From: a virus
IMG/VR virus record: IMGVR_UViG_3300028610_001751
Location: 1-47,009 of that record
Length of the DNA: 47,009 nt
Strand: one strand, 5' to 3'
The position numbers and the translations under genes are program-made. This document shows positions 1 through 47,009 of the stretch, in pieces (position 1 is the first letter of the stretch; every line of letters begins with the position of its first letter). The notes beneath the pieces were generated by a model. The model searched no databases. It had not been told where the DNA came from and worked only from the letters and a program-made list of their open reading frames with translations.

Positions 1-144
1 CCCGCCGGCGGTCTGGGCAACGGTGTGAACGATCGCGATCTCGTCGACCATTAGCTGGAGCTCCCTCGGCGGTAGTGGCTCGAGAGCGCCGCCGCCGCCG
101 CGCGCGCCACTTCTTCGCTGATCTCGACGTCTTCGTCGATCGCC
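1..144. repeat. Terminal direct repeat, left copy
   Basis: These 144 bases are identical to 46866-47009. The copy holds the first 17 codons of the fibre-like gene (its ATG is at 51-49) and the last codons of the lectin-repeat gene, whose TAA stop is at 51-53. Joining the copies rebuilds both genes exactly, so this is most simply the overlap of a circular assembly (circularly permuted or terminally redundant phage DNA). A true short terminal repeat is possible but cannot be told apart from sequence alone. Confidence 0.95.
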
Positions 145-9983: not shown

Positions 9984-10511
9984 CTACGCGGGAGTTGCCC
10001 GACCACCTGCCGGGCTGAGGTGGGTGAGCCGGCCCGGACTTGTAACGTCCTCCGAGCACTTATCCCCCTGGACGGTTGAGAGCTCCTTGCGGACGCCCCC
10101 GGACACCACCTGTTTTCCGGATGTGGCGTGCCATTCCGGTGTTCTTGCGAGGCTCGGATAGAGCCGGGGGAGGGCGGCGAGGAACTTGTCGATGCCAGTC
10201 ACTCCCGCGACGAGGACGCAAGGGTAGTCCACAAGGGCTCGATAGCGGGCCATTTGGGCCTGCCAGGCCGGCTTGTGGGGCTCGGTGTCATGGGGGACGA
10301 AGCGCCCCCTCCCCTTCTTCACCTCAATGCCGAGACAGGCCTGATTGCCGCGGTAGACGACCAGATCGAGCCTCCTCCGGCCCCTGCCCACCTTGCGGCT
10401 CCCCTTCCTGCCGATGCACACCTCGCCCCGAACGCTGTACCCGGGGCGCAGGACAGACAGGAGTGCGGCGTAGAGTTGCGCCTGTACCTCGAACTCGGGG
10501 GGCGTCCTCAC
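9984..10511 (-). CDS. PD-(D/E)XK nuclease-like protein
   Basis: 175 aa from a GTG at 10511 with GGGGGAG upstream. The core pattern fits a PD-(D/E)XK fold: helix with Glu8 and Gln11, beta hairpin with Asp49 (RRRLDLVVYRG), then Glu63-x-Lys65 (LGIEVKKGRG) and Gln86 in the following helix. A DNA-cleaving role (recombination, VRR-NUC-like, or nicking) is likely; substrate unknown. The C-terminal 50 residues look disordered. It stands alone downstream of a hairpin-rich interval and a 20-nt motif shared with 11257-11276. Confidence 0.65.
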   Translation of the reverse strand: MRTPPEFEVQAQLYAALLSVLRPGYSVRGEVCIGRKGSRKVGRGRRRLDLVVYRGNQACLGIEVKKGRGRFVPHDTEPHKPAWQAQMARYRALVDYPCVLVAGVTGIDKFLAALPRLYPSLARTPEWHATSGKQVVSGGVRKELSTVQGDKCSEDVTSPGRLTHLSPAGGRATPA

Positions 10512-10593: not shown

Positions 10594-10629
10594 GAAGCCG
10601 CTTCCCCCTCCGGAAGCGGCTTCTTTTCT
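10594..10629 (+). terminator. Strong rho-independent terminator facing the plus strand
   Basis: Perfect 12-bp stem GAAGCCGCTTCC/GGAAGCGGCTTC (10594-10605 with 10612-10623), 6-base loop, then TTTTCT on the plus strand. On the minus strand there is no T tract after the hairpin. No plus-strand gene precedes it, which suggests an antisense or small plus-strand transcript, or a blocker of readthrough. Confidence 0.7.
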
Positions 10630-10640
10630 ATCCAGGGTGC

Positions 10641-10699
10641 GGCCCTCCCCGGCAGTCGTCGTCGTCACCAAGGGTTGTGGTGAGGTCGCGGGGAGGGCC
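10641..10699. ncRNA. Candidate structured RNA element
   Basis: A perfect 10-bp outer stem (10641-10650 with 10690-10699, GGCCCTCCCC/GGGGAGGGCC) encloses a 6-bp inner stem (10665-10670 with 10678-10683, TCACCA/TGGTGA, 7-base loop). It begins at the stop codon of the 60-aa gene on the minus strand. It could be a 3' stabilising structure, a processed leader of the nuclease mRNA, or part of a plus-strand RNA. Confidence 0.45.
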
Positions 10700-10881
10700 T
10701 AGATGGTGGGGTCGGGCGGAGCCCAGAGGGCGTCCTCGAACTCTCGAAGAAACTTTGCCGAGCGCGGGCCAACGTGCGCGACGAGCTCTTCGTCGGGGAG
10801 CATGAGGAGCTCGAGGACGTGATCCATGCGAATGACGTTCGTCGCGAGGTACGTTCTCAACGGATCGGGCGGAAGTGCCAT
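10699..10881 (-). CDS. Small hypothetical protein
   Basis: 60 aa, helical and acidic (MDHVLELLMLPDEELVAHVG; FLREFEDALWA). ATG at 10881 follows the truncated methyltransferase stop by 8 nt and has no strong ribosome site of its own, so expression may depend on coupling. Its stop codon lies at the edge of the inverted repeat 10641-10699. Function unknown. Confidence 0.55.
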   Translation of the reverse strand: MALPPDPLRTYLATNVIRMDHVLELLMLPDEELVAHVGPRSAKFLREFEDALWAPPDPTI

Positions 10882-10889
10882 CAGGTCGC

Positions 10890-10982
10890 CTACGCTGCGC
10901 CGAGTTGATACGCGGAGCGCCAGAGCGTCCCCACGTTTGATTCGGTCTTGCCCTGGTAGATGCCGATGCCGAAGTAGCTCAC
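10890..10982 (-). CDS. 30-aa minigene equal to the N terminus of a SpoU/TrmH-type RNA methyltransferase
   Basis: GTG at 10982 with an excellent AGGAGG six bases upstream, overlapping the previous stop as GTGA. The peptide begins SYFGIGIYQGKTESNVGTLW and continues RSAYQLGAA before a TAG. This is the characteristic opening of SpoU/TrmH-like methyltransferases (NVGTLWRSA block), which are normally about 150 aa or longer with the SAM-binding knot at the C terminus. Here everything after the first block is absent, and no remnant is visible downstream in any frame. Either a decayed gene that kept its translation signals or a peptide with its own use. Confidence 0.65.
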   Translation of the reverse strand: MSYFGIGIYQGKTESNVGTLWRSAYQLGAA

Positions 10983-11254
10983 GCCTTCCTCCTGCGCTCG
11001 CGCCGCGCGCGCTTCCTAAACGCGGACTGGCCTAAATCCTCTATGGCAGCCGCCACGCCGCACGTGCGCGTATGCCCTGTTTCGTGTGGCTCGACCTGTC
11101 CGTGGTTGCTCATCCCGTACGCCCATCCCGGGTTCACCCCCTCGCATTCACGACACTGTCCGTTGCCCATGCCCCACTCGTTTTTTCTGAGGAGAGCCAG
11201 GGCCGGGGGCAAGGCAAACGGGTCTCGGAAGTCCGATAGCTTGTTCGGTGTCAT
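10979..11254 (-). CDS. Small Cys/His zinc-finger-like protein
   Basis: 91 aa. The core pattern is C-x2-C (QCRECEG), then HGQVEPHETGHTRTC, i.e. C-C-H-H-C spacing typical of small phage proteins annotated as zinc-finger-like. A very basic C terminus (RKRARRERRRK) suggests nucleic-acid contact. The ATG at 11254 lies only 2 nt after the 20-nt motif B and lacks a purine ribosome site, so it could be translated from a leaderless or nearly leaderless transcript. Confidence 0.65.
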   Translation of the reverse strand: MTPNKLSDFRDPFALPPALALLRKNEWGMGNGQCRECEGVNPGWAYGMSNHGQVEPHETGHTRTCGVAAAIEDLGQSAFRKRARRERRRKA

Positions 11255-11256
11255 CC

Positions 11257-11276
11257 CACAACCGTACCCCGGTTCC
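11257..11276 (-). promoter_or_regulatory. 20-nt intergenic motif, copy B
   Basis: Minus strand reads GGAACCGGGGTACGGTTGTG, 17/20 identical to copy A. It lies between the terminator at 11280-11316 and the ATG at 11254. A promoter restarting transcription after the terminator is the natural inference; the very short distance to the ATG would make a leaderless mRNA. Confidence 0.5.
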
Positions 11277-11279
11277 ACG

Positions 11280-11316
11280 AAAAAGGGGCGCCGTGTCCCA
11301 ACCGACACGACGCCCC
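11280..11316 (-). terminator. Rho-independent terminator (minus strand)
   Basis: Stem of 13 pairs with one mismatch (11285-11297 with 11304-11316), loop of 6, followed on the minus strand by TTTTT (11284-11280). It begins 20 nt after the stop of the secreted 184-aa protein and ends the transcript of the DNA-metabolism block. Confidence 0.85.
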
Positions 11317-13180: not shown

Positions 13181-13434
13181 GTGATCCGCCTGAGGTTCTC
13201 GACGTACTCGTCCATCTCCAGCGAGATCCCCCTCATCAGCCGCTCCGCCGCTTCCTCATCGTCCACGGCGACCATCATTCGGTTGAAGATCCAGTCGACC
13301 GCGGCGTAGAAGGTCTTTTTCGTCTCGCGCCGCTGATTCGGGCCGGCAGCCACCGGCAGGATATGGAACTCGTAGAGTCTCCACGCCTCAGCCACCGAGG
13401 TCGCCGCGAGTAGCTTTTCTTGAAGCTCCGTCAT
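13177..13434 (-). CDS. Hypothetical helical protein
   Basis: 85 aa, almost all helical (MTELQEKLLAATSVAEAWRL; FYAAVDWIFNRMMVAVDDEEA; ISLEMDEYVENLRR). ATG at 13434 abuts the annealase stop and follows GGGGGGAAG. No motif recognised. Position suggests an accessory to recombination or replication. Confidence 0.65.
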   Translation of the reverse strand: MTELQEKLLAATSVAEAWRLYEFHILPVAAGPNQRRETKKTFYAAVDWIFNRMMVAVDDEEAAERLMRGISLEMDEYVENLRRIT

Positions 13435-14639
13435 CAGTCTTCCCCCCGCATGATCGCATCGAGCTCGGCCTGCGGAACGCCGTAGTCCTCCGCCTTCTCC
13501 GTGGGCGTCTGCGGCGGGTCGCCGTTGGCCTTCTTCTCCGCCTTCTTGGCGTCGGCGGCGTCTTGCCACTTCTGGCAGGCGGGGCACAGCTTGTCCGTTG
13601 TCGGCTTGCCACAGACCCCGCAGGCGCGCTTCCGCGTCTTCTTCTTGGGTGACGGGTTCTCCTTGGCCAGCTTGGCCTCGACGGCGGCCTCGAGCTTCTT
13701 GCGCTCCTCGGGCGTTAGTTCGGTGCCCTCGGAGGGTGAGCGAAAGCGGTCCACCTCCTCGACGTGCTCCGCCTGCCAGGCGGCCTTGCCCTCTGGGGTC
13801 TGAAGGTGCCCGTCGCCGGCGCCGAAGAGGTCCTCCTTGTCCTCGCCCTCGACGACGGTGCGCTCCTTCTTCGGCGGGTCGTCCTTGCCGAGGATCTCCC
13901 CGATGGTCGTCTCGCCCTCCTTCACGGCCTGCCACAGGTGCACGAGGCGCCGGCGGTCGGACACAGTCCAGTTCGCGCGCGTCTTTCCGATGGCGGTCTC
14001 GAGCGCCTCGAGGTCGACGCCCTTGCCGTCCCACGCCTGGATGATCTTCTCGATGGCCGTATCGTCGAGCCCCTGGGCCTGGAGACGCATGGCGATTGCC
14101 TTCAGCTCCGACTTCATGCCGGCGGGCACCGAGCGAATGATTACCTCGCGCACGAGCTTGGAGCGCTCGGCCTTCATCACGATGTTATGGAAACGGTCGT
14201 GGTTGTGGCGCCTGGCCTTGCCGTACTTCGTCGTGTACCACGCGGAGATGACAACGGAGTCCGACCACACGCGCCCGCGCTGGTAGTCGGTGAACGAGGC
14301 GGAGACGCGCAGCTTGTCGGGGTCGTCCTCGACGAGGTCGACGAAGGTTGCCACACGGTTGAACCCGTACGCCTCCGCCAGCGCCTCGGCCGCGCGGATC
14401 GATAGGTCCTCGGCGTACTGCATGACGCCGTCCTTGTCCTTGCCCACCGGCTTGCAGTACACGGCCGCAGCCGCGAACGTCGGGTAGGTCTCCAGTTGCT
14501 CCCTCAGCTCCTCGAGGATCTTCTTGTAGTCCCGAGGCCGAGCCGCCGCCATGGCGACGATCGTCTCGTTCTCCATCTTTAGGATCGCCAAGTCGCGCGG
14601 GAGTGCCGCGACGGCTTGGGCTTGCGGTTCATCCGTCAT
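13434..14639 (-). CDS. Candidate single-strand annealing protein (RecT/Erf-like) with zinc ribbon
   Basis: 401 aa. The N-terminal domain has the layout of phage RecT-like annealases: a helical start with RPRDYKKILEELREQLETYP, a beta region with GVMQYAEDLSIRAAEALAEAYG, an FTDYQRGRVWSDSV strand pair, and the VREVIIRSVPAGMKSELKAIA segment that resembles the conserved 'RNAVLRVIP' region. A charged linker follows, then a C4 zinc ribbon at about 342-358 (CGVCGKPTTDKLCPACQ). It is paired with a Cas4/RecB-type exonuclease two genes upstream, the classic annealase-exonuclease module. Assignment rests on pattern and context. Confidence 0.6.
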   Translation of the reverse strand: MTDEPQAQAVAALPRDLAILKMENETIVAMAAARPRDYKKILEELREQLETYPTFAAAAVYCKPVGKDKDGVMQYAEDLSIRAAEALAEAYGFNRVATFVDLVEDDPDKLRVSASFTDYQRGRVWSDSVVISAWYTTKYGKARRHNHDRFHNIVMKAERSKLVREVIIRSVPAGMKSELKAIAMRLQAQGLDDTAIEKIIQAWDGKGVDLEALETAIGKTRANWTVSDRRRLVHLWQAVKEGETTIGEILGKDDPPKKERTVVEGEDKEDLFGAGDGHLQTPEGKAAWQAEHVEEVDRFRSPSEGTELTPEERKKLEAAVEAKLAKENPSPKKKTRKRACGVCGKPTTDKLCPACQKWQDAADAKKAEKKANGDPPQTPTEKAEDYGVPQAELDAIMRGED

Positions 14640-16898: not shown

Positions 16899-19800
16899 TT
16901 ATTTCAAAGCGTCTTTCCGGGCTTCAGCGCTCCGGCGCAGCGCCCGGAACCGTTCCCTGGCGGCCGTGCCCCCCTTGGCCTGCTCGAGGGCCTCCTTGGC
17001 CAGCAACACCGATTCGCGCACGAGCGCCCGGCGCTTGTCCGTGTCGTCCGTCTGACTCCTGATGTACGACAGCGCCGAGACTGCACGTGTGGCGTCGGCG
17101 AGCATAAGTCGCACCTGGCCCTGAACGTGAGTCTCCTCGACGCGATCGGATGCCTGGCGCAGCCGGTACTCGTCCAGGGTGTCGTACAGCCGGTCGATCG
17201 ACTTGGGGTGGAAGCCCATCGCCCCACCGCGCTGGAAGAGCCGGCCCAGGACGGCGATGTCGGCAGGCTCATCACCACGCCCACCGGCCTTGCCGCCCAG
17301 GCCGACCGCGTCGATCACGTCGGAGGCCACCCCTCCGAAGACGCCACGAATGGCGTGATCGATGCGCCTCGGCGAAGCCCCGAAGAGCTCACCGGTGAAT
17401 CGAGCGACGCGGCTCGTGTACTCGCTGTATTGCTCCTCGAGCGGCTTACGCGCGTCGCGAGTCGGAACGATCGGCGTGTCCCAGAAGCGGTCTCGGTTGC
17501 TCCATTGATCGGCCATCTCGTCGAAGAGCACCGGCTCCACGTTGGGTGTGAGCACCTCGAAGAACTGCGAGAACCACCGTTTCGCCGTCTCGGGCTCCTG
17601 CTGGTACCAGGCGTCCGCGAACATCTCGGGCATGGCGCCGAACATCATGCCGGGCTCGAAGGCGCGAGGAATCCGGACGAGTTCCTCGCGTCCGTTCCAG
17701 TTGAACGGCACGTGCCAGAAGAGGGCCTTCGCCTCCGAAGAGAGCTCCTTGTACCACTCTTTGTCCTTGTTCCACCACCAGAGCGCCAGCGTGATCGAGG
17801 CGAGCTCCAGGCCCCTCCAGAGGAACCGGGCGGGGTTGCGCTTGAAGGCCCGCACGTTGGCTCTGGGGCCTTGCAGGGCGGCGTTGTGGAAGGGGGCGAC
17901 GCGGTTCCACATCCGGCCATACTCGCCGGCCGCGGAGAAGTCGGTCGTCACCTGTTTCGCGGCCAGGAGGAGCTCGAGCGATTGGTCGAGCGTCATCGGC
18001 TGCCCTGGAGCCCAGCCGATCTTCTTGGCGAGCAGCTTGAGCTCGGCCACGCGCGCGGCGGACTCGGGGAACTGCAGGGTGTCGCGCAGGAAGTCGAAGG
18101 CGTTGCGGGGGTCCAGAACGCGGATCACCGGCCCCTGGAAGAGGCGCCGGGCGGCGCGGTCTGTGTGGCGAATGTCCTGGCCGAGGGGTTGGGCCATCTC
18201 GCCGCCCAGACGCCGGAACGCGTCCAGGTACGGGGACGCGTACTTCCCGCCGGTTGCGCGGTGGAGCGCCGCGTTACCGAACTGCATGAGCCACTCCCCA
18301 AACAGGCGCGGCGCCCAGGCCGAGCTCTGCGTGTTGAGGGCGAAGGTCTGCACGTCGCGTTGGGGGTTCGTGATGAGCCCGAAGGACGCACGCAGGCCAG
18401 TCGTGCCGGCCCGGAAGATTTCCGCCGGCAGGCCGAGGAACAGATCCAGCACCTTCGGCAGGCGGTACACGTCCATGCCGGCGAGCGTCTTGAACAGGCG
18501 CGCGTCGACCTCGAACCATCGGACGCGTCCGACCTCGCTGTCCCACATTGGGATGACGGGGACCTCCCCCTGGCGCGGCGAGGCCGCCGGCGCAAAGAAT
18601 GTCAGCGTCTCGCCCATCAGGTCGAGCGTGTCGGTCTCCTCGGCCTTGGCGCCCTCGACCGGCAGGAGCTTCCCGCCACGGCTGGACATCAGGGCCTCGC
18701 CCTCGGCCGCAGCGAGCACCTTGCCGGTCTTCTCGAAGACGGTCTTGGAGAGCTCGTCGATCAGGTCGGCGACGCTACGCGAGGCCACCGGCACGCGGTC
18801 GCGGGGAACCTCGACGACCAGGTGCCCCATGCCCTCGACCCCCGAGAGCCGAATCATCTGATCCAGGACGAGCCGGCGGTGCGCGAGCAGGATCGTCTTG
18901 CGCGCGTTGGCGATCATCACGGGGAAGGGGTTCTTCACGCGACGCCCAGAGCCACGGAGCAACTTCACGATGCCGCCCGACTCGGACCCCGCGCCTCCGG
19001 ACCTCGCGGCCCAGAGCGAGTCGAGCTCGGCGAATTCGCGCTGCAGGGGGATGTAGTAGCCGGGATCGACGTCGCGGATCCGCTGCACGACGCGCGCCAT
19101 GGACGGGCTCGCCTGCGCGGCGTAGTTCAAGACGCCCTCGTTCCACTCGTAGACCTTGTCCGCGGCGAGCTGGAACTGGGGGCTGTCGAGCTCTTCGATC
19201 ACCTGCTGGGCGTCCATCAGGGAGAGCCCGGGGTCTCGACTGCCGTTGGGGTCTGTCCAGAGCGCCATTGCCCGCTTGGCCCAGAGGTAGATCGAGAAGT
19301 CTCGGTAGCGACCCCTCACGAGCCCACGGATGTCCTCAAGCGCCGGACCGGTGCGGTTGCCGGCGATGTCGATCATGGACTCCCCGATCATGTACTCGGC
19401 CCTGGCGTCGTGCGTCGTGCGCAGCGCGGAGAGAGTGAAGTAGGGGTCTTCGGACGGCGCGAGCTCGCGGTCGAGACCCTTCTCGGCCTGCCTGGCGAAT
19501 TCGTTGAGCGGCTGCGCCATCTCGAACCAGGCTTCCACGGTGAAGAACCGGCGGATGGCGTCAACGCCCTCTTTGAAGCGCCCGGCGAGACCCGGCTGCT
19601 CGACCATGGAGGCTTGCGCGCGCTTCTTCGAGCCCTGGTCCCGCCAGCGGTCCGCGAGCTTGCGCACCTCCAGCAGCGGCTTCTTGCAGGCCGGGCAACG
19701 GTCGACGAGGAACGAGTCTTCAAACCACCGGTAGAAGAGGGGCGCGGTGGACTTGGCCTCTGCCGGAGCGGTCGTGTAGAGCCGGATGAACTCGGCGAAC

Positions 19801-22433
19801 CCCTCGCGCTTGTACCCCGCGGCGGGCTTGCGCTTGCCGTACAGGGCCTTGCCCATCTTCGCGAGCTCCGCCTGCAACTTGCGCGAGACGTTCTTCTTCT
19901 TCCACGGGCCACCGTCGCCGGCGGTCCACCCGAAGACGGCCTTGTCGAGGGCGTGGCCGACCTCGTGCGCCGCGGTGGCCACGTTGTTCGCCGCCTTGAC
20001 CCGGATGACCTCGGGCCCGACATGGAAGACGCCGCGGGCCTTCATGTTGCCCATGCGCCCGTAGCGGATCGGAGAGGCGGTGCCGGCCGCGGTGAGCACC
20101 TTCGAGAGCGCATCGATTATCTGTGGGGCACTGACGGGCTTGCCCTTGGTGGGCGCAGCAGAGGCGGCAAGCCTTCCGATGAGTCGACCCCCAATGGGGG
20201 CGCCGAGGTTCGCGCCCCCACCACCCATGGGGTCAGCGGGAAGGCCTGCCGCCATGGCCGCCGGCGCCTCTCCTGGGTCGTACGGCACGCCGGAGCTTTC
20301 GACGTCGTCGATGTCGGCTTCTTCGTCGACCGTGAGTCCCAGGGCAAGGTCGGCCGTGAGCCGCCCGCGCTCTTCGTGAATGGCGATCTGGGCCTTCTTG
20401 TGCTTCTCCTTGGTCGCAGGGAGCTTGGCCCTACGCCGCTTGCCCTCCAGCGCCGCCATCTCGCGATCGATCTCGGCGATGCGCTTCCTGGCCTCCTGGC
20501 GGGCGGTGTCCTCTTTTCCCGGCTCGGGCGATGGGAGTTTTTCCGTTTGCGCCAAGGCGCCCGTTCGCCGTTCCCGGACCTCATCGGCCCCTTTCACGTC
20601 CCCTTTGTCGAGCTTCTTCTGCTCTTCGGTCAGGCTGGCGAGCTCCTTCTCGAGGCGGTCGATCTGTTCCGGCCCTTCCTCCTCGGTTTCCGTGGGGACC
20701 TTCCGGCGCTCCTTGCCCTTGAAGGCCCGTTGCCCCTTCCGCCGCTCCTCCTGGCGGCCCTCCTCCTTGGCCCCCTCGATGGCCTTCGTGACCTTCTCGG
20801 CCGTGCTGGGCTTCTCTGGCTCGGGCTCTACCTCCTCAGCCGTCCATTCTTCGAGGATCTGCTCGAGGGCGAAATCGGCGTTCTCAGCACTGGCAAGCGA
20901 CTTTTTCGCCTGCTCGAGCTCCTCGTCGGGCACCCCCAGGATCTTGGCTTGCCTAGCCAGTTCGCCGCGGTGGGCAGTCGTGGCGGGGCGGTGCTCCTTC
21001 TCGGCCTCGATCTGCGCTTCGAGCTCGGCCTGCTCTTCCTTTTCGGCCTTCTTGGCCGCTTCCGGGGGTTTTGTCGGTGCTCCTTCCTCTCCCTCCAGCG
21101 CCGTCCGGAACTGCTCGATCGACTCCTCGGAGTACCCGGCCAGCCGCGAGAGCTCGAGCTTGTCCTCGGTCGTGCCGCCGTACCCCTTCTCGGCAAGGTG
21201 CTGCGCGAGCTCGTCGGCGCTCTCTCCCTGCGCGTGGTAGACGAACCACGTCCGGTCCTGTCCTTTCACCGAGAAGACCTCGAGCCCGATCTCGCGCGCC
21301 CTGGCGGCCTCGGCGCCCGAGTCCGTGAATCCAGCCTTGCGCTGGCCGGAGACGATCGACTCGGGGCCCATGTAACCCTCGCGGAGTCCTGCCTTGATCT
21401 CGTCGCTGGTCCCCTCGGCAGCCGCGACCACGGGCTCGAACTCCGGCGTCCCCTCGGGCGTGCCGCCAGCCTCGACACCGGGGGCGCCGGGCTCTTCTGC
21501 GCGCGGTCCGGGTGGGGCGGCGATGTTCCGGCGGCCGGCCATGGTCGTGATGACGGAGAGGATGACGCCGGAGAAGAAGCCGGCGGAACCGCCCTCCAGG
21601 ACCCCTTCGAGCCACTTGCGATCCTTGTCGTACCCGACGAGGTCGGCCGCGATGATGTTCGAGGCCTCGGTCTGGAAGGCCTCCTGCAGGAACTCCTCGC
21701 CGCCCTCCACGAGCACGTCCACAAGGAGGCGCTTCAGACCGCCCCCGCTGGTCTTGTCTGCGCGGTCGAGGATCCGGCCGATGCCCACGGCCTCCGAGGT
21801 CCCGACGAGCATCCCGAGCCCCCAGGCCTTCCAGGCGTCCTTGTCCGACGCGCCGCTCATCTTGGCGTCGTGGTATTGCGCCGACCCGCCCATCATGGCG
21901 CCCAGCCCCATGCTCGTCGCCTTGGCGGTGGCGCCGAGGGCCTTGCCGATCGCCCCGCCGGCGATGAAGCCCGCGCCCGACCCGAGGGCCTGGGGCACGG
22001 TCGAGTACGCGAACGAGTCGGCGGCCTTCTCCGCTCCAGGAACGGCCCACTTGGCGACGTCGCGGATGGCGGTGGCGTACTCCTTGGCCTTGCGCCCGAT
22101 CAGCTTCCCGCCCGCGGTGCCCGGACTCCCAGGCCCGCCGAACTGGAACGCACCCGACTCTGAGGCGATCTCCGACGCGATCCCGATCGAGTCCATGATG
22201 CCCGCCGGCATCTCGGCCACCCCGCCCACGAAGGACGAGACGGCCTGCTGGCCCTTCTCCCTGCGCGACGGGCGGCGTGCGGCCTCCAGCCGAGACAAGA
22301 CGGTCGTCTTCTTACGCTCCTCGGCGCGGAAGGCCTTGCCGCGCTCCGCGGTCCGCTCCTCCTGAGCCGCGAGCGTGGCCCGGAGGTCCTGCTCGGGGGC
22401 GGAAGCCTCCTGGAGGCGCTCGAGAACGCCCAT
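16899..22433 (-). CDS. Giant polyvalent internal virion protein (zincin motif, LPD38-like C terminus)
   Basis: 1,844 aa, AAGGA site before the ATG at 22433. Order: helical N terminus; Gly/Ala-rich amphipathic region at about 65-330 (GSGAGFIAGGAIGKALGATA) that could insert in membranes; charged linker; a zincin-type metallopeptidase segment with HEVGHALD at 823-830 and a downstream Glu (GYKREGFAEFIRLY); a CPAC pair at 913-916; and a long helical C-terminal part (about 1360-1800) resembling the LPD38 domain of polyvalent phage proteins (GLITNPQRDVQTF; YGRMWNRVAPFHNAALQG; WWWNKDKEWYKEL). Such proteins ride in podovirus heads and are ejected with the DNA to form the channel and attack host targets. 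Confidence 0.8.
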   Translation of the reverse strand: MGVLERLQEASAPEQDLRATLAAQEERTAERGKAFRAEERKKTTVLSRLEAARRPSRREKGQQAVSSFVGGVAEMPAGIMDSIGIASEIASESGAFQFGGPGSPGTAGGKLIGRKAKEYATAIRDVAKWAVPGAEKAADSFAYSTVPQALGSGAGFIAGGAIGKALGATAKATSMGLGAMMGGSAQYHDAKMSGASDKDAWKAWGLGMLVGTSEAVGIGRILDRADKTSGGGLKRLLVDVLVEGGEEFLQEAFQTEASNIIAADLVGYDKDRKWLEGVLEGGSAGFFSGVILSVITTMAGRRNIAAPPGPRAEEPGAPGVEAGGTPEGTPEFEPVVAAAEGTSDEIKAGLREGYMGPESIVSGQRKAGFTDSGAEAARAREIGLEVFSVKGQDRTWFVYHAQGESADELAQHLAEKGYGGTTEDKLELSRLAGYSEESIEQFRTALEGEEGAPTKPPEAAKKAEKEEQAELEAQIEAEKEHRPATTAHRGELARQAKILGVPDEELEQAKKSLASAENADFALEQILEEWTAEEVEPEPEKPSTAEKVTKAIEGAKEEGRQEERRKGQRAFKGKERRKVPTETEEEGPEQIDRLEKELASLTEEQKKLDKGDVKGADEVRERRTGALAQTEKLPSPEPGKEDTARQEARKRIAEIDREMAALEGKRRRAKLPATKEKHKKAQIAIHEERGRLTADLALGLTVDEEADIDDVESSGVPYDPGEAPAAMAAGLPADPMGGGGANLGAPIGGRLIGRLAASAAPTKGKPVSAPQIIDALSKVLTAAGTASPIRYGRMGNMKARGVFHVGPEVIRVKAANNVATAAHEVGHALDKAVFGWTAGDGGPWKKKNVSRKLQAELAKMGKALYGKRKPAAGYKREGFAEFIRLYTTAPAEAKSTAPLFYRWFEDSFLVDRCPACKKPLLEVRKLADRWRDQGSKKRAQASMVEQPGLAGRFKEGVDAIRRFFTVEAWFEMAQPLNEFARQAEKGLDRELAPSEDPYFTLSALRTTHDARAEYMIGESMIDIAGNRTGPALEDIRGLVRGRYRDFSIYLWAKRAMALWTDPNGSRDPGLSLMDAQQVIEELDSPQFQLAADKVYEWNEGVLNYAAQASPSMARVVQRIRDVDPGYYIPLQREFAELDSLWAARSGGAGSESGGIVKLLRGSGRRVKNPFPVMIANARKTILLAHRRLVLDQMIRLSGVEGMGHLVVEVPRDRVPVASRSVADLIDELSKTVFEKTGKVLAAAEGEALMSSRGGKLLPVEGAKAEETDTLDLMGETLTFFAPAASPRQGEVPVIPMWDSEVGRVRWFEVDARLFKTLAGMDVYRLPKVLDLFLGLPAEIFRAGTTGLRASFGLITNPQRDVQTFALNTQSSAWAPRLFGEWLMQFGNAALHRATGGKYASPYLDAFRRLGGEMAQPLGQDIRHTDRAARRLFQGPVIRVLDPRNAFDFLRDTLQFPESAARVAELKLLAKKIGWAPGQPMTLDQSLELLLAAKQVTTDFSAAGEYGRMWNRVAPFHNAALQGPRANVRAFKRNPARFLWRGLELASITLALWWWNKDKEWYKELSSEAKALFWHVPFNWNGREELVRIPRAFEPGMMFGAMPEMFADAWYQQEPETAKRWFSQFFEVLTPNVEPVLFDEMADQWSNRDRFWDTPIVPTRDARKPLEEQYSEYTSRVARFTGELFGASPRRIDHAIRGVFGGVASDVIDAVGLGGKAGGRGDEPADIAVLGRLFQRGGAMGFHPKSIDRLYDTLDEYRLRQASDRVEETHVQGQVRLMLADATRAVSALSYIRSQTDDTDKRRALVRESVLLAKEALEQAKGGTAARERFRALRRSAEARKDALK

Positions 22434-45405: not shown

Positions 45406-46916
45406 CAGAAATCTCCGTCGTCGCCGGCTTCGGACCCAGCGAAGGCGTTGCGTCCGCGCTCGGCGCCAGCCTGGGCATTATCGGCTTTGGTAGTGAACTG
45501 ATCCATGGCCGGTAGGTCCAGGTTCGTCACGACGGCCAACACCTCCTCGGAGAGCTCTTCCACCTCTACGGCTGCCGCCTGGCCGGTAAAGCGTCCTGTC
45601 TCCTCGGGGATTTCTTCGACCTCGGCGAGCTCCTGGCCGGCGAACCGGCCCACCTCCTCGGCAATCTCCTCGGTCTCGTCGATGGCCTGGGGCAGGGCCG
45701 CGATCCCGATGACGATCATTCGGCCGGCCGTGGCCGTCGAGAAGTTGAGCGTGAAGCCCAGTTCGTCCATCGAAACGAAGGTGGCCTCCGCTGCGACCAC
45801 GCCGGCGTCGTCCGGCAGGTACAGGGCCTCGTTCTCCGCGTGACTCTGGGCGTTCGAGGTTGGCGGGTTCGCGATCGTCAAGCCCTGCTCGCTGTACGCC
45901 GAGTGCGAGTATTCCTCGGACTCGGTGAACGCGCAGATCGCCTCCGAGCCCGGCAGGGGGCTCGCCGCCAGGACCGCGTCCTCGGTCGTCACGAGCGTCG
46001 CGATAGCCAGCACGAGCTCGGGGCGGAACCCAAGGCCCGTGAACGCCTGGTTCCCGGTGGTCCCCGGCAGGGTCTCGACGACGACCATGGCCGTGCGGAC
46101 GTCGGTGAACTCGAGAGCGAGGTACTGGGCCGGGATTGAGCTCCCGTTGCTGTCCCACGTGAAGCCCGACGCCGAGAAGGCCGTCACGATGCCCTGGCCG
46201 GCCACGCCCCCGTTGAGCTCGCCCAGCCCCTCGAGCGTCGAGAGGTAGCTCTCGGTCACGGTCGGCTCGGTGAGCGTCTCCCAGTCCAGGACAAGCGAGG
46301 CCTGCGTCTCTGAACCGTCGTTGACGGCCGCGCCAAGGCCCGAATCGTAGTCCAGCGTGGCCGCGGCTGGGCCCCCGCCGTAGTTGCCGTGCTGGGAATG
46401 GAAGAAGACGAGGTCCGGCTCGAACCCGATGTTCTCGAGTGTTGGGGTCGTGGGGACGTTCGCTTGCGCCACCACGAGGTTCGCCGTACCGCCGAACAGG
46501 ATGATTGTCATCCGATAGGCCGCGTCCGGGGTGTCGTCCCAGGTGATGCGGAAGCCGTTGGCAATGCCGGAGACCGAACGGGCGATCACGGTTCCCGTGC
46601 CGATCAGCGTGGGGGCCGTGCTGCTCGTGGCCGTCGGGTGCGGGATGACGATGGCGCGGTCGTTCGAGCCCCACGTCACGGTCTCGGGGACGGACGCGTT
46701 GGCGTCCTCCGAGCGCCGCGCGCTGCAAGCCTGGTTCCCGAGCTCGTCCGAGAAGCCCACCATCATGCGGGCGTGGGGCGCGTCGGCTCCGAGCGACGTC
46801 GCGCCGTTCAGGATGATGATGCAGCCCGAGAAGTCCGTGATGTCGGCGTGGGTAATGTCCTGGTTCCCGCCGGCGGTCTGGGCAACGGTGTGAACGATCG
46901 CGATCTCGTCGACCAT
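45405..46916 (-). CDS. Tail fibre-like / surface virion protein
   Basis: 503 aa from ATG 46916. Residues 1-410 contain repeated beta units with the phage signature 'IGFEPDLVFFHS' (about 160) and 'GLGFRPELVLAIAT' (about 290), each beginning with a Gly-x-Gln-type strand, typical of surface-exposed phage virion proteins. Residues 411-459 are three acidic repeats (DETEEIAEEVGRFAGQ; AEVEEIPEETGRFTGQ), clearly related to the 13-repeat array of the gene that precedes it on the circle. A Ser/Ala/Gly/Asp-rich tail follows. Likely host recognition or decoration. Confidence 0.7.
   Translation of the reverse strand: MVDEIAIVHTVAQTAGGNQDITHADITDFSGCIIILNGATSLGADAPHARMMVGFSDELGNQACSARRSEDANASVPETVTWGSNDRAIVIPHPTATSSTAPTLIGTGTVIARSVSGIANGFRITWDDTPDAAYRMTIILFGGTANLVVAQANVPTTPTLENIGFEPDLVFFHSQHGNYGGGPAAATLDYDSGLGAAVNDGSETQASLVLDWETLTEPTVTESYLSTLEGLGELNGGVAGQGIVTAFSASGFTWDSNGSSIPAQYLALEFTDVRTAMVVVETLPGTTGNQAFTGLGFRPELVLAIATLVTTEDAVLAASPLPGSEAICAFTESEEYSHSAYSEQGLTIANPPTSNAQSHAENEALYLPDDAGVVAAEATFVSMDELGFTLNFSTATAGRMIVIGIAALPQAIDETEEIAEEVGRFAGQELAEVEEIPEETGRFTGQAAAVEVEELSEEVLAVVTNLDLPAMDQFTTKADNAQAGAERGRNAFAGSEAGDDGDF
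45540..45686 (-). repeat. Three acidic repeats related to the 78-839 array
   Basis: Residues 411-459 of the fibre-like protein. The unit core E-E-I-x-E-E-x-G-R-F-x-G-Q is shared with the LamG-like neighbour. Shared repeats in adjacent genes point to recombination or gene conversion between them. Confidence 0.8.
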
Positions 46917-47009
46917 TAGCTGGAGCTCCCTCGGCGGTAGTGGCTCGAGAGCGCCGCCGCCGCCGCGCGCGCCACTTCTTCGCTGATCTCGACGTCTTCG
47001 TCGATCGCC
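46866..47009. repeat. Terminal direct repeat, right copy
   Basis: Identical to bases 1-144. It contains the first 17 codons of the fibre-like gene (ATG at 46916-46914) and, beyond 46916, the last 31 codons including the stop of the lectin-repeat gene, which is complete only at the left end of the window. Confidence 0.95.

Follow-up and report, generated by a model that had tools for sequence, protein, structure and literature searches.

A 30-codon remnant of a SpoU/TrmH-family RNA methyltransferase gene in a phage genome, most likely the scar of a recent deletion

The 5' stump of a SpoU/TrmH-family RNA 2'-O-methyltransferase gene was recognized in a viral genome, IMG/VR record IMGVR_UViG_3300028610_001751, which was analysed over its whole length of 47,009 nucleotides (the window). 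The stump is most likely the scar of a recent deletion rather than a working mini-protein. With a probability of about 0.78, we consider it to be what a recent deletion left of the 5' part of a single-domain gene (~145 aa). The full-length gene would have been acquired horizontally, and a full-length ancestor on this branch is presumed. The deletion would then have taken, recently, codons 31 to the end, i.e., about 340 nt as judged from the size of relatives. Codon 30 would thereby have been joined to sequence that gives TAG at once, with the next small ORF starting at an ATG 8 nt on. Among the nearest relatives, none was found with a full gene at the stump site, so the deletion is inferred rather than directly seen, and its ends are not mapped.

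The stump is a clean case of a truncated gene in the accessory region of a phage, caught before decay. It also gives a caution: a short ORF may look conserved and have good start signals without being a mini-protein under selection. The features of the region are listed in Table 1.

Table 1. Features of the stump region in the window
Feature	Position	Strand	Remarks
Terminator-like hairpin	11285..11316	-	13 bp, then T5; between the upstream gene and the small unit with the stump
Upstream small ORF	10979..11254	-	likely ATG start at 11254; stop overlaps stump GTG (GTGA); no family
AGGAGG Shine-Dalgarno-like site	10988..10993	-	5 nt before stump GTG; weak evidence
5' stump of SpoU/TrmH-family RNA 2'-O-methyltransferase gene	10890..10982	-	30 codons; beta-1, alpha-1, motif 1; ends TAG
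Downstream 60-aa ORF	10699..10881	-	ATG 8 nt past stump TAG; may be translationally coupled; no family

Homology and structural boundary

The SpoU family was gathered by scanning viral contigs with patterns and profiles. Over 29 residues, the stump aligned without gaps to the N terminus of the ~145-aa single-domain members, with up to 86% identity. The best match was L007 (25 of the 29 residues, including the unusual SYF start). A tblastn search against a full-length phage homologue gave an E value of 2e-12 (85.7% over 28 aa, to residues 4-31), and the family N-terminal profile matched the stump at an HMM E value of 2.6e-18. No match to the degenerate family motif was found in shuffled windows. 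The likeness to the N terminus of SpoU/TrmH enzymes, which the first-pass annotation had pointed out, was thus supported, and on these comparisons it is judged to be true homology. The 30-aa stump alone was not recognized by Pfam and PHROGs, and the curated cut-off of PF00588 was not reached. The full-length relatives pass PF00588 at 59-79 bits, and L006 and L002 score as PF00588.

Motif 1 of the SpoU/TrmH (SPOUT class IV) RNA methyltransferases is present in the stump as NVGTLWRSA, with the conserved Asn and the catalytic Arg. Both residues were invariant in 35 unique family blocks, although both lie within the search pattern; they were invariant in A4 too. The motif-1 Arg is the catalytic residue in TrmH (PMC12255305, PMC11640301), and the SAM pocket and knot are built by motifs 2 and 3 (PMC12255305). 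The stump is alike to the phage single-domain SpoU/TrmH enzymes (e.g., L006, L007, L055 and Mycobacterium phage WXIN) in its start, beta-1, alpha-1 and motif 1, whereas residues 31 to ~145 of these enzymes, with motifs 2 and 3, the SAM pocket and the trefoil knot, are missing from it. The WXIN protein used for comparison, WPH57748.1, is annotated as "RNA methyltransferase, TrmH family".

The family's AlphaFold (AF2) model (pLDDT 86, pTM 0.84) matches solved SpoU structures, e.g., 5l0z, 2ha8, and 5co4. Its elements are beta-1 at 4-10, alpha-1 at 15-27 and beta-2 at 32-36, and residue 30 falls in the loop between alpha-1 and beta-2. By this model, the stump covers exactly beta-1 and alpha-1 with motif 1, and the cut lies at the end of the unit. 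Because motifs 2 and 3 are missing, the stump peptide is expected to have no enzymatic activity.

Start signals and neighbouring ORFs

The stump reads GTG + SYFGIGIYQGKTESNVGTLWRSAYQLGAA + TAG, and its start context is AGGAGG-AAGGC-GTG. The AGGAGG site, the GTGA coupling sequence, the 30 codons and the TAG, all listed in the first-pass annotation, were present as described. That a perfect AGGAGG drives translation stood only in part: the site does lie 5 nt upstream, but AGGAGG occurs 52 times on the minus strand of the window and here it doubles as Arg-Arg codons of the upstream ORF. For these two reasons, it says little for a tuned ribosome-binding site (RBS). In codon-position GC (0.52/0.48/0.84), the stump is like the genes of the phage.

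The stump GTG overlaps the TGA of the ORF listed at 10979-11308. The listed GTG start (11308) of this ORF falls within the terminator-like hairpin, so its true start is probably the ATG in Table 1. This strong hairpin suggests that the stump and its two neighbours form one short unit, which it sets off. No Rfam match for an RNA element was found in the stump region. Searches with the proteins of two nearby ORFs (10979-11308 and 13434-14639) found no relatives, and no neighbours were common to the window and other SpoU-family loci. Another strong hairpin, of 12-15 bp, was observed at 10597-10629, where it separates ORFs 10699-10881 and 9984-10511. On the plus strand TTTTCT follows it, and on the minus strand an A run comes before it. 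Its direction is odd, as the surrounding genes are likely on the minus strand.

The layout of the unit raises a different explanation, i.e., that selection retains the stump as a translated leader joining the upstream ORF to ORF 10699-10881, whatever the peptide sequence. The GTGA overlap and the TAG-8 nt-ATG arrangement would let ribosomes pass through the stump to ORF 10699-10881, which has a weak RBS of its own. However, the ancestral full gene could share the same layout, and the AGGAGG is common on the minus strand. Such a leader also needs no family-like residues, so the undecayed state would be unexplained unless the event was recent. A leader of this kind is therefore considered unlikely. 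Still, if anything keeps the frame of the stump, coupling to ORF 10699-10881 would be the likeliest cause, ahead of the peptide itself.

Absence of the remainder from the genome

Motifs 2 and 3, the SAM pocket and the C-terminal trefoil knot, together ~80% of the gene, are absent from the stump ORF and from the whole window. The family C-terminal profile, run unfiltered in six frames over the whole window, found nothing at E<=10. As controls, the same profile picked up the full domain of L055 at 2e-45 and, in L064, a remnant spanning 26 positions at 5e-7. Pfam PF00588 also gave nothing over the window. The earlier statement that the knotted SAM domain is missing with no downstream remnant was borne out by both searches.

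An exact 144-bp direct terminal repeat was found at window positions 1-144 and 46866-47009. Since the ends share this repeat, the genome is indicated to be closed (circular assembly) or terminally redundant. A split or intron-interrupted gene was rejected, as no C-terminal part is present anywhere in the closed genome. Readthrough or frameshift was rejected as well; an in-frame TGA lies two codons past the TAG, and no frame after the cut is family-like.

A wider motif scan of viral contigs gave 42 loci, of which four were cut by the end of the sequence. Among the 38 uncut relatives, 37 were full length (about 140-170 aa) and one was broken (L064, the same as L038). The full form is the rule among these relatives, and the 30-codon form with the stop at the same place was found in no other viral contig, although near-identical records may lie outside the scan. 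A stop-position pattern check recovered the window itself. A scan of genome contigs with Y[QH]GKTExN[VIMTA]GTLWR gave no match, and the rarity of the short form is stated for viral contigs only. Among these, it was not seen in several diverged genomes, as a conserved micropeptide would be.

The broken relative is on a low-GC contig, IMGVR_UViG_3300035698_012533. Past TLWRSAF, its sequence jumps to PMCLNVAVAGSIIMFDK, a family C-terminal motif, one frame off. This points to an internal out-of-frame deletion of about 300 nt in a SpoU-family gene, at 2983-3123 of L038 and at the same place in L064. Like the window, this contig keeps a 5' stump and has lost most of the rest. The differences are that its family sequence stops short of the window's by a few residues, that a 3' remnant survives out of frame, and that the two contigs are unrelated. 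The deletion is thus independent of that in the window, and the middle or end of a SpoU-family gene was apparently lost at least twice. By this parallel, such deletions do occur. Shortly past the broken methylase gene, at 3355-3490 of L038, a low-complexity run of TTCTGCAACTCTTGCGAC-like units was also observed.

An assembly or sequencing artefact, with the full gene in the population and the contig misjoined, is quite unlikely. The stump is a single copy in a metagenomic virus record, and the other odd copy of the family is likewise metagenomic. However, the contig closes on itself through the 144-bp repeat, the sequence to either side of the junction has normal codon-position GC, and no gene remnant is present, so a simple frameshift or false stop does not apply.

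Age of the truncation and selection

Every residue of the stump also occurs in the family at the same column, and in a leave-one-out family profile its score was the third best of 36. If a stump-like ancestor had changed neutrally, the probability of no family-foreign residue was 0.38 at 0.02 substitutions/site, about 0.09 at 0.05 and 0.009 at 0.1. Neutral decay would thus be bounded at roughly 0.05 substitutions/site. On that scale, either the truncation happened recently or the peptide is under constraint, and a single copy does not tell these apart. Recency needs no added assumption: a recent deletion accounts for all the observations, with no need for selection on the peptide. In the nearest DNA-level relatives, about half or more of the third positions differ from the stump, and 81-88% of the first and second positions are kept. 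This pattern fits selection that acted on the full protein while it was still intact.

The first-pass annotation had offered two readings, a very recent deletion or selection that kept only the first structural block. The first is probably right, considering the undecayed stump and the neutral bound. The second was not upheld, as no second copy of the form was found in the viral collection (near-identical records may lie outside the scan) and a neutral stump below ~0.05 substitutions/site looks the same. Some observations also speak against the deletion scar. The undecayed sequence is also expected from selection on the peptide, and the structural-boundary fit with the intact start signals is mildly suggestive of retention.

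It is highly improbable that the stump is a functional micropeptide, whose beta-1/alpha-1 motif-1 block acts in trans, e.g., by dominant negative pairing with host SpoU enzymes or by RNA binding. Its undecayed state, with the Asn and Arg of motif 1, and a cut exactly between secondary-structure elements agree with such a role. However, the form occurs only once in the viral collection, motifs 2 and 3, which form the SAM pocket and knot (PMC12255305), are missing, and 30 residues with one strand and one helix would be unlikely to fold alone. Least probable of all is that the phage pared its RNA methyltransferase to a selected 30-residue motif-1 peptide acting on host SPOUT enzymes or RNA; if true, it would be surprising that so minimal a fragment acts in the absence of the SPOUT knot.

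Probable origin of the gene in the phage lineage

Searches with LPD38 and capsid proteins gave relatives of the phage itself, i.e., L009/L041 (one record, 47,219 bp), L040 (47,004 bp) and the shorter L010, L042, and L043. These resemble the window mainly across structural genes, and capsid-level relatives showed 68-73% in best segments. No trace of the stump or of its gene was found in these relatives, and the 8-16 kb region of the window had no counterpart in the nearest ones at the thresholds used. Since the phage's own relatives are without the gene, it was probably an accessory gain on the branch of the window and was truncated afterwards, in agreement with the deletion scar.

In the same genome, an ORF of 1844 aa at 16899-22433 carries an LPD38 domain (E 2e-30), so a phage genome of 47 kb encodes a large protein of polyvalent type. 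It is about 56% identical to L009/L010 in the best segment.
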